Both the position numbers and the translations under genes were made by a program. This document shows, piece after piece, positions 43,393 through 47,535 of a DNA stretch of 64,000 nt. How positions within the stretch are numbered: position 1 is the first letter of the stretch; each line of letters starts with the position of its first letter. The notes beneath the pieces were generated by a model, which saw only the letters and a list, made by a program, of their open reading frames with translations, was not told the origin of the DNA and did no database searches. Source of the stretch: Clostridiales bacterium CHKCI006 (GTDB lineage: Bacteria; Bacillota_I; Bacilli_A; Erysipelotrichales; Coprobacillaceae); NCBI GenBank assembly GCA_900018345.1, contig FCNA01000148.1:1-64000 (forward strand), read 5' to 3'.

Positions 43393-43500
43393 CTTCCTAC
43401 CCTATCTTCTGGACACTTTGTCCAGAGGCGGAGGCATCCTTGATGGGGCCCCTGAACAAAGTTACAATATAGGTGTAATGTGATAGGGAAGGAGGCTATC

Positions 43501-45182
43501 ATGGCACGGAGAAGCCGGGCTGTTGTTGAAACTGTTAAAGCAAAATTCCGGGTATGGAGAATTGTAATCTATATCCGACTTTCTAAAGAGGATGCGCGTT
43601 GTCTTGACGAGTCCGAAAGCGTAACAAACCAGCGGCAGATTATTGAAGATCATATTGCCGGGTTTAATGACGGTGACGAGTATATTATTGTTGACGAGTA
43701 TGTGGACGACGGTATTTCCGGCACAACGGATGACGAGCGGGATGATTTCCAGCGGATGCTGGCTGACATTAAGCGGGGGCGTGTAAACTGTGTGATCGTG
43801 AAAGACCTTGAACGTTCTTTCCGAAACTACAGTGATCAGGGCTATTATCTGGACGACTGGTTCCCCGGTACAATGTCCGCTTTATCTCTCTGTATCACCA
43901 GCCGCTGGACAGCTACAGAGAACCCCAAAATATGCGGAGCATCGCCGTTCCAATCCAGGGTGTTCTCAACGAAAACCACTGTGCGGAAACCTCTGACAAG
44001 GTACGCGAGGTGTTTGATATGAAGCGCCGGAACGGTGAGCACATCGGCTCCTTTGCCGCTTATGGATATATCAAAGACCCCAACGACAAAAACGCGCTTG
44101 TGGTTGACGAAGAAGCCGCCGCCGTTGTCCGGGATATTTTCAATAAGTTCCTGGACGGCATGAGCAAAAACGCCATTGTCCACTATCTGAACGATCACGG
44201 GATATTAAGCCCCGCCGCTTACAAGCGGGAGCGCCTGGGGCTGAAATACCAAAATCCCAGTGTTGATCCTGCTAAACCGTCTTTATGGTGTGCACAGTCC
44301 ATCACTACCATATTGAAAAACCGTATGTATTGCGGAGATATGGTGCAGGGGCGCTATCGCATGAAAAGCTACAAGGTACACGTTCAAGAAGTTGTCCCGG
44401 AGGACGAGTGGTATATCGTAGAAAATACCCATGAGGCAATCATTGACCGGGAAACCTTTGAAAAGGTACAGCGGCTCCTGCTCCGGGACACTCGTACGGG
44501 CCCCCAGCAGAAAAAGCTGTATCTATTCAGCGGCTTTTTAAAATGTGCTGACTGTGGCAAGGCTATGACCCGGAGCAAAGTCGGAAATGTGGTGTACTAT
44601 TACTGCCGTACTTATAAAGACCAGTCGAAAACGGCTTGTACCAAACACACCATCAAGCATGACCGTTTGGAAGCTGCTGTCCTCTACGCAATTCAACAAC
44701 AGGTCTATCTGGCTGTCGATTACACAAAGACCATTGAACGGATCAACCGGGCCCCGCTGGTAAAAAGCCAGTCCAAAAAGCTGATGGATGCCATTGAACA
44801 AAAGGAACGGGAACTTGCTAAAATTACCCGTTACAAGCAGGCTATTTACCAGGACTGGAAAGACGGCGAGATTTCTCATTCTGACTATCGTCACATGAAA
44901 GAGGACTATGAGCGGCAGGCAGAGGCCCTGGATGAAGTCATTGGAAAGCTCCGGGCGGAGCAGGCGGAACTGGAAAACGGCATTGACACCGAAAACCCGT
45001 TCTTGACTGCGTTCCGGCAGTATCAGAACATCGACAAGCTGACGCGGGACATTTTGATTGAATTAGTAGACCATATCAAGATACACGAGGGCGGCTATAT
45101 CAGCATTGTATTCCGCTTTGCTGACGAGCTCCGCCGTATTCAAGAATTTATCGAGGTCAATACCCATAACGAGGCGGTTTGA
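43501..45182 (+). pseudogene. Large serine recombinase, frameshifted
   Basis: Site-specific recombinase of the TndX/TnpX type. The resolvase domain has the catalytic serine Ser28 in YIRLSKED, then a recombinase domain (MKRRNGEHIGSFAAYGY), a zinc ribbon (CADCG with later cysteines) and a coiled-coil C-terminus. Frames 43501-43870 and 43870-45182 are joined by a one-base deletion in the C run at 43863-43866. Adding one C restores FPRYNVRFIS. Corrected length is about 560 residues. It could be a real inactivating mutation or a base-calling error in the homopolymer. Its 3' end is 51 bp from the right element boundary. Confidence 0.85.
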
Positions 45183-45233: not shown

Positions 45234-45989
45234 GTCTGCCCGCATTGCGGGGCTTCTCATGAATATCTTTCCTACAATAATGGCAAAAAAAGAACTCAGA
45301 TCAGATGCAATGTCTGTGAAAAAACGTTCTCTACCCAAAAGAACTATTCTCAGAAGATTGTTCGAAAATGTCCTCATTGCGGTTCCAAACTTTCTCTCAT
45401 CAAGTCCAGACAACATTTTGATATCTATAAGTGCATGAACCCCAAGTGTCCTCACTATCGGTCTGAATTACATAAGTTATCCAAGGAAGATAAGAAAAAG
45501 TATAGGCTCAATCCTTCTGCTTTCTCTCTTCACTATATCACTCGTGTCTTCAATGCCTCTCTGGACGCACTCGAAAGCCTTCAGTTCAAGGTGTGATCCC
45601 TTCTCGTATTGATTTGTCCCACATACGCCATTCTAAACACGTTCTGGGGCTTGCTTTGACTTACTACATCAATTACGGCCTCTCCTTAAGAAAAACTGCG
45701 CTCGTTCTCTATGAGGTCCATGATATCAAGATCTCTCATCAAACGATTGAATAGAACATTCAAATATTCTTATGCGGTCAAGAATGGCTATAACACATTG
45801 GAAGGTGCTAATGACTTTATGTGTCTTTTCACTACTTACTTTAACTTCTTAAGGAATCATACCAGCCTTGGTTACAAGCCTCCTGTTGAATTGGACTGTC
45901 TTAAGAAGACACATAACATGCCTAACAAATGGAACATTCTCCTCGATGAAGCGTTGAATTTTTATCTAAAATCGACTATGGAATTCTAA
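45234..45989 (+). pseudogene. Transposase, C-terminal fragment with frameshift and internal deletion
   Basis: Continuation of the gene begun at 41083. It opens with two zinc-ribbon-like CPHC motifs (VCPHCG at 45234; CPHCG and CMNPKCPHY later). A one-base shift occurs near 45590 (FK then GVIPSRIDLSHIRHSKH). Near 45745 the frame jumps from ISHQTI to RLNRTFKYSYAVKNGY, so the catalytic centre of the DDE domain is missing. The final HTSLGYKPPVE is typical of DDE transposases. Confidence 0.75.
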
Positions 45990-46067
45990 ATATGAATCTT
46001 TTGTTTTTTTCATAGCTTTTTTGACACTACCATTTAGGTACCTTACTAATAAAAGCGAAAAAAACTG

Positions 46068-47105
46068 TCATTGACAGCTTTCTTCCAGGAGCTTGAATGT
46101 TTTTTGCTCGCAATCGATCTCATAAGGCAGACCAAGCGCAAGAATGCCGGTAGGGTAGGCATGACCGATATTGACATTGCCGAGCACGACAAGGTCCTGA
46201 TGTGCATTTTCGACTTGTAAGATCTGGCGCAGGACTTGATGATAGGGTTCGATCTTATTTTTGAAAGCCGGCTTTCCGAACACGATGCCGGCAATGACAT
46301 CTAAGATGCCCTGGGCTTCCAGGTTGCGCAGAATCTCGGCGAAAAGATAGAGCGGCATATCCATCTCGCTGGTCTCCATCAATAATAATTTTCCTTTCCA
46401 TTGATCGAGTGTTGGCCACAAGGGCGTTCCCATCAAAGATACAAAGACATCCACGCAGCCACCCAAGAGCTCACCGGTCACTTTGCCATGTCCCTGCACG
46501 ACCACATAGCCTTCATTTGGGTAACGCGGAGTAGAAAGATGCTGATTTTCGTTTGCCCAGTCGATGCGATCTGTTTCATAGCTGGCAAAAGGACTGGCCG
46601 GAATCGTGTTGGGTGCTTGAGGTTGCATCAGCATGGTATCGATGGCCTTGCGGGTATAGGGATTGATTTCGACATATTCTGCCAGCTGATTCATGACGGA
46701 CAAGCCATAATAAGAGACGATACCGGCCTGATACATCATGAAGTGGTTGACGGTCGTATCTGAAAACCCGGTAAAGATCTTTGGATTTTGGGCGATGATC
46801 TTGTCATCAATATAAGGCAGCAGGCGGATCGCATCATCTCCACCGATGGCATTAAAGATGGCTTTGATCTCAGGATCGGCAAATGCCTGCATCCAATCAG
46901 CGGCCCGTGCCTCAGGATGCTGATAAAGATATGCCTGACCTTTGAGGGCGTTGGGCATGGTGACGACTTCCAAACCATAATCCTGTTCCAGTCTTTGTTT
47001 AGCGAGTGTGTACTTGTGCAAAAAGGCCTCTTCTCCCATCATTCCGCTGGATAAGGAGACGATGGCAACTTTGTCTTTGGGTCTTAAACGCTGTGGTTTT
47101 TTCAT
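46068..47105 (-). CDS. S66 peptidase, MccF-like (LD-carboxypeptidase family)
   Basis: A 345-residue serine peptidase of family S66. The proposed triad is Ser115 (TGFSDTT), Glu244 (LLMETSE) and His315 (IGHAYPTG). The length and the NLEAQGILDVIAGIVFGKP segment place it nearer MccF/YocD than LdcA (about 300 residues). MccF cleaves aminoacyl-nucleotide inhibitors of aminoacyl-tRNA synthetases; LdcA recycles murein peptides. The gene is directly preceded by a T-box leader, so expression should rise when a tRNA is uncharged. That supports an MccF-like detoxifying role, though the inhibitor is unknown. Confidence 0.85.
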   Translation of the reverse strand: MKKPQRLRPKDKVAIVSLSSGMMGEEAFLHKYTLAKQRLEQDYGLEVVTMPNALKGQAYLYQHPEARAADWMQAFADPEIKAIFNAIGGDDAIRLLPYIDDKIIAQNPKIFTGFSDTTVNHFMMYQAGIVSYYGLSVMNQLAEYVEINPYTRKAIDTMLMQPQAPNTIPASPFASYETDRIDWANENQHLSTPRYPNEGYVVVQGHGKVTGELLGGCVDVFVSLMGTPLWPTLDQWKGKLLLMETSEMDMPLYLFAEILRNLEAQGILDVIAGIVFGKPAFKNKIEPYHQVLRQILQVENAHQDLVVLGNVNIGHAYPTGILALGLPYEIDCEQKTFKLLEESCQ

Positions 47106-47130
47106 TTTCTTTTCCTCCTCAAAATCACCT

Positions 47131-47425
47131 CAGGTAAAAAAGAAAAGCTCCCGTCCCGGTTAGTTTCCTAACCAGAGGACGAGAGCATTGCTACCGTGGT
47201 TCCACCTCTTTTTATGATTGCCTCACGACAATCACCTCTTCGCGTACAATCATACGCTAGTACGATAACGGGTACAGGGTTCCGGAATAGACTACTCTTC
47301 TTTCGCCTAGTCAGCTCCAAGGTGTGTTCGACCAATCTTGTATGATCCCTCTCACCAAAACGGGATTTCTCTGGCATACGCAACTGATGTACTCTTCCTT
47401 TTCTAAGCCTTTTCTTTTTTACTTG
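47131..47425 (-). promoter_or_regulatory. T-box leader, probably threonine-specific
   Basis: Read on the minus strand. A Stem I with AGAGTA and AG-bulge-type elements has the specifier region GAACACACCTTGGAGC, with the ACC codon at 47321-47323. The T-box AGGTGGAACCACGG is at 47194-47207. A terminator is formed by 47147-47186 plus a U-run. The TGGA bulge pairs with a tRNA ending UCCA, that is discriminator U. This fits tRNA-Thr and not tRNA-His or tRNA-Asn, whose codons (CAC, AAC) also occur in the loop. Antitermination turns on the S66 peptidase gene. Confidence 0.85.
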
Positions 47426-47430
47426 TGTTT

Positions 47431-47459
47431 AGTATAGTTCATTCCCTAGACAAAGTCAA
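47431..47459 (-). promoter_or_regulatory. Promoter of the T-box leader
   Basis: On the minus strand, TTGACT (47454-47459) and TATACT (47431-47436) are exactly 17 bp apart, just upstream of the T-box. Confidence 0.8.
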
Positions 47460-47535
47460 TGCTTTTGATGGATCAACCTTTTCGCATGTCTTGTTTTTGC
47501 GATAGCGTGAGTATCCAATGGTGCGTCTAGATAAT

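Follow-up and report, generated by a model that had tools for sequence, protein, structure and literature searches.

An S66 peptidase gene of the MccF clade stands behind a probable histidine-type T-box leader in Clostridiales bacterium CHKCI006

T-box leaders have long been known to permit transcriptional read-through in response to uncharged tRNA. Histidine T-boxes have been surveyed on his operons and on hisXYZ in Firmicutes, including Erysipelotrichales (PMC9413887), and duplication of a T-box with insertion before another gene is a described route (route iii in PMC2494555). MccF, a hydrolase of the S66 family, cleaves peptidyl- and aminoacyl-nucleotides (PMC9239234). Here we describe a locus that touches on all three. 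Its leader resembles those on hisXYZ and the his operons in its CAC specifier and leader type, but the target is an S66 hydrolase rather than a gene for biosynthesis or transport. As in route iii, a nearly unchanged leader module precedes an unrelated gene; in the published cases the link between gene and specified amino acid is plain to see, whereas a relation of the peptidase to histidine is not evident. The peptidase has the fold and the Ser-Glu-His triad of MccF and of Ba3275. Unlike MccF, it lies outside any microcin cluster within the window (the whole 64,000-nt stretch of DNA that was analyzed), and unlike both enzymes, it is under T-box control.

The unit lies on the minus strand and runs from promoter through T-box, terminator, and ribosome binding site to the S66 gene, spanning positions 46057 to 47459. 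Consensus matches mark a putative promoter with a −35 element, TTGACT (47454 to 47459), and a −10 element, TATACT (47431 to 47436), separated by a spacer of 17. The leader (47172 to 47414) scored 112.9 bits with the Rfam covariance model RF00230 (gathering score 93; E = 3.7e-24), which it matched over the complete length of the model (positions 1 to 219), and was the sole T-box found by the Rfam scan of the window. Its T-box core is AGGUGGAACCACGG. An antiterminator with a UGGN bulge, here UGGA (47201 to 47204), competes with an intrinsic terminator, GCTCTCGTCC...GGGACGGGAGC followed by T-runs (47136 to 47186), whose hairpin is predicted at −28.5 kcal/mol. Beyond the terminator come a ribosome binding site, GAGGAGG (47114 to 47120), and the ATG of the S66 gene (46068 to 47105; 345 amino acids). 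No gene intervenes between the T-box and this open reading frame, which rules out the possibility that the leader serves another downstream gene. A reading of the sequence alone had already proposed a T-box with promoter, Stem I, antiterminator, and terminator directly ahead of an S66 peptidase gene, and in these respects it was borne out. Terminator-like hairpins were found after the upstream gene, nrdG, and after the peptidase gene itself (46057 to 46085, a consensus match). Since they flank the unit, transcription from the T-box promoter probably covers the peptidase gene and no other.

The sequence-only reading had placed an ACC specifier in this leader and had assigned it to threonine. 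Conservation of the codon by itself does not separate CAC from an ACN codon in a shifted frame, because every ACN codon is a threonine codon. We therefore relied on the downstream genes and on a calibration of the specifier frame within the host genome (3.33 Mb, 164 contigs), which holds 23 T-boxes. The rule, under which the specifier triplet lies upstream of the 3′ arm of the basal Stem I helix with one base between them, was calibrated on 12 T-boxes ahead of recognizable aminoacyl-tRNA synthetase genes, named from their protein starts and agreement with the codon rather than by family search. It gave UCC for serS, CUC for leuS, AUG for metG, GUA for valS (where a short gene lies between the T-box and valS), UAC for tyrS, AAA for lysS, UGC for cysS, AUC for ileS, UUC for pheS, ACU for thrS, UGG for trpS, and GCU for alaS. 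In the peptidase leader, the basal helix is AAGG/CCUU and the specifier loop ends in GAA-CAC-A before CCUU, so that the calibrated frame reads CAC, a histidine codon, at 47324 to 47326. The last two bases of the supposed ACC instead pair in the basal helix. No ACN codon stands at the calibrated position, and the thrS leader of the same genome combines ACU with UGGU. On the basis of the frame, and of comparison with the leaders described below, the assignment of the peptidase leader to the histidine type is well supported.

A near-identical copy of this leader lies on another contig of the genome. A 340-bp module (47098 to 47437), which starts at the −10 box and reaches ATGAAAAA at the start codon, recurs on contig C95 (6425 to 6764) with 335 of 340 positions identical (98.5%). 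The C95 copy precedes genes for a substrate-binding protein, a permease, and an ATPase of the polar amino-acid ABC family; its T-box and its orthologues suggest that this importer is of the histidine type. These were the two CAC leaders found in the host genome, one controlling the importer and one the peptidase. The hisS gene is present but is not among the genes with a T-box. In other genomes of the order, we found CAC leaders of the same type ahead of like importers (L090, L091, L093, L094, L095, L099, and L104) and, in five genomes, ahead of hisZ-hisG operons (L097, L098, L100, L101, and L102), with HisZ of L098 and L100 confirmed by TIGR00443. Homologous leaders thus precede histidine genes, which is a further point against threonine.

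It had also been argued that the UGGA bulge fits a discriminator U and hence tRNA-Thr. We gathered the tRNA genes across the host genome and found A73 in all three tRNA-Thr species; U73 was limited to tRNAs for Cys and Gly. UGGA therefore cannot support threonine; the calibrated frame, the discriminators, and the leaders of other genomes together led us to drop that specificity. Nor does the bulge pair with tRNA-His, whose C73 would stand opposite A. UGGA was nevertheless present in 11 of the 12 CAC leaders of other genomes, and TBDB applies no discriminator matching to histidine T-boxes, because in tRNA-His this base can be paired within the tRNA itself (PMC7778990). UGGA also occurred in T-boxes of other specificities. 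A pair of leaders in the host genome (L008/L011; C119, 6746 to 6996, and C103, 141091 to 141341), 90% identical over 301 bp and ahead of OppA-like and TrpX-like binding proteins, combines a UAC (Tyr) specifier with UGGA, though tRNA-Tyr has A73. Two CUC (Leu) T-boxes ahead of a leuA-like gene in two related genomes (L106 and L107) likewise carry UGGA; tRNA-Leu of the host genome has A73, with which such a bulge would again not pair.

The gene product contains both S66 domains (Pfam PF02016 and PF17676) and a Ser115/Glu244/His315 triad that is invariant in the alignment and aligns with the residues mutated in Ba3275. Its structure was predicted with a pLDDT of 93. The best structural match was Ba3275 (TM 0.96, 40% identity), an S66 enzyme crystallized with AMP as its S116A mutant; MccF proteins followed at a TM of about 0.86, and murein LdcA was clearly more distant (0.65 to 0.70), so a murein LdcA function was set aside. 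Trp183 of the peptidase aligns with a Trp of Ba3275. The protein keeps 107 of the 116 conserved columns and departs at 9. Describing it as MccF-like in predicted fold and in clade is therefore justified, as had been proposed. By analogy with MccF, activity on aminoacyl-nucleotides is possible.

We looked at 96 S66 relatives to determine if the pairing of leader and peptidase is conserved. Sixteen of them belong to the family and order; the other 80, returned by an alignment query after a single-protein query had given none, are the nearest relatives in GTDB. With Rfam and a T-box core pattern that recovers 19 of the 23 known T-boxes, no T-box was detected at any of the 96, some of which end at contig edges, so that a few leaders could be missed; the further T-box/S66 pairs that had been suggested as a check thus did not appear. 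As far as these relatives go, the pairing looks peculiar to the host lineage. We also found no T-boxes with peptidase targets in the open-access literature, which is no proof of absence. In the S66 tree, the window protein falls amid Clostridia sequences, largely from gut metagenomes, at an exact place that is weakly supported, and apart from two family members whose S66 proteins are identical to those of Longibaculum muris and Faecalibacillus intestinalis, identities that put the host probably within Coprobacillaceae. It forms the longest end branch among the 97 S66 relatives (0.71, against a median of 0.1), with the triad kept.

The promoter hexamers are the same in the two CAC leaders; the spacers differ. 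Within the module, the five differences are found towards its ends, and the 237 bp between them are identical. This likeness fits a recent copy, or older copies homogenized by recombination. Several other features of the genome were observed alongside. A serine recombinase gene beside the peptidase gene is split over two overlapping frames (43480 to 44022 and 43932 to 45182), and the remnant of an IS3/IS481-like transposase gene (45711 to 45989) adjoins the peptidase gene. In another pair of leaders (L014/L015; C119, 3543 to 3791, and C163, 46989 to 47237), 308 bp are 93% identical and the promoter spacers are unlike. Both members have an AUC specifier, but one carries UGGU and the other UGGC; the genes behind them encode an OppA-like binding protein and an MFS-type transporter. 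On the 18-kb contig C119, a stretch of 11 kb holds four T-boxes: one before pheS and three, with differing specifiers, before OppA-like binding proteins.

Neither hisG nor hisD was found in the host genome. B. subtilis, used as a control, has both genes. They were missed there too in both searches, so the absence is probable rather than certain, and the host is a probable histidine auxotroph.

Taken together, we consider it quite likely that a transcriptional T-box responding to tRNA-His controls this MccF-clade S66 hydrolase, and that a lineage-specific capture of the importer leader joined the gene to the histidine-starvation response. While tRNA-His is charged, the leader terminator would stop transcription. 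A shortage of histidine, or a block of HisRS, would leave uncharged tRNA-His to pair with the CAC specifier; the 3′ end of the tRNA would contact the antiterminator, and read-through would yield the peptidase together with the histidine-type importer. Induction of the peptidase by uncharged tRNA-His is in this sense inferred from the leader. The leader itself would be a copy, specific to this lineage, of the one on the importer, or one of a pair homogenized by recombination, and the peptidase would thereby have entered the starvation response of a bacterium probably unable to make histidine. Most plausibly, the benefit would lie in freeing amino acids from peptides or conjugates, if there is a benefit at all. 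Counting against this proposal are the UGGA that does not pair with C73 of tRNA-His and the draft assembly, with two near-identical leaders on different contigs.

The original proposal, that a threonine T-box induces a peptidase destroying a ThrRS-directed aminoacyl-nucleotide, drew on the MccF clade of the enzyme and on the ACA or ACC that appears in GAACACACC when the frame is shifted. The unusual target, a T-box on an MccF-like S66 gene, stands. The circuit of resistance to a ThrRS inhibitor finds no support: with CAC in the calibrated frame, a copy of the same leader on the importer, A73 in the threonine tRNAs, a thrS leader of another kind, and the same leader type ahead of hisZ-hisG in five genomes, it is the least probable of the readings considered here. 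Transferred to histidine, the idea would be that an aminoacyl-nucleotide directed at HisRS makes uncharged tRNA-His accumulate, which induces the importer along with an MccF-like enzyme that destroys the inhibitor. The CAC specifier, the cleavage of peptidyl- and aminoacyl-nucleotides by MccF (PMC9239234), and the structural ranking, in which the AMP-bound Ba3275 comes closest, agree with it. The pairing is not conserved at the 96 homologues, the locus has no resistance gene context, and on balance we regard this reading as unlikely. To our knowledge, there is no HisRS-directed compound of the aminoacyl-nucleotide class.

The leader might instead have been set before the peptidase gene by recombination without functional benefit. 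That this is a single known case, that the peptidase sits on a long branch, that similar leader pairs exist elsewhere in the genome, and that recombinase and transposase remains adjoin the gene all speak for such an accident, which we rate as a real possibility, somewhat short of even. The intact leader, with its specifier, bulge, and terminator, and an enzyme that retains its triad and most conserved columns speak against it. An assembly artefact, in which the 340-bp repeat led the assembler to fuse the S66 gene to the importer leader, is very unlikely. The assembly is a draft and the leaders have 237 identical bp between their differences, but both copies are complete with distinct flanks, the five differences reach towards both ends, and the start codon and N-terminus of the S66 protein are intact at the junction; a simple swap would still put the S66 gene behind one T-box. 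Because the pairing is absent at the 96 homologues and histidine biosynthesis is seemingly missing, a nutritional role or plain capture is at least as likely as resistance, and we prefer a capture confined to this lineage, whether of nutritional use or of none, to a resistance circuit.

The specificity of the proposed circuit is thus corrected to histidine, and the locus offers a clean example of a near-unchanged T-box module before a gene that does not belong to the synthesis, charging, or transport of amino acids. As T-box specificity is used for predicting gene function, the histidine leader suggests a substrate class for the uncharacterized Ba3275 subgroup. If the enzyme does remove an inhibitor of HisRS, the unit would be a tRNA-sensing resistance switch; if it does not, the locus would be a warning not to infer function from a T-box by itself.
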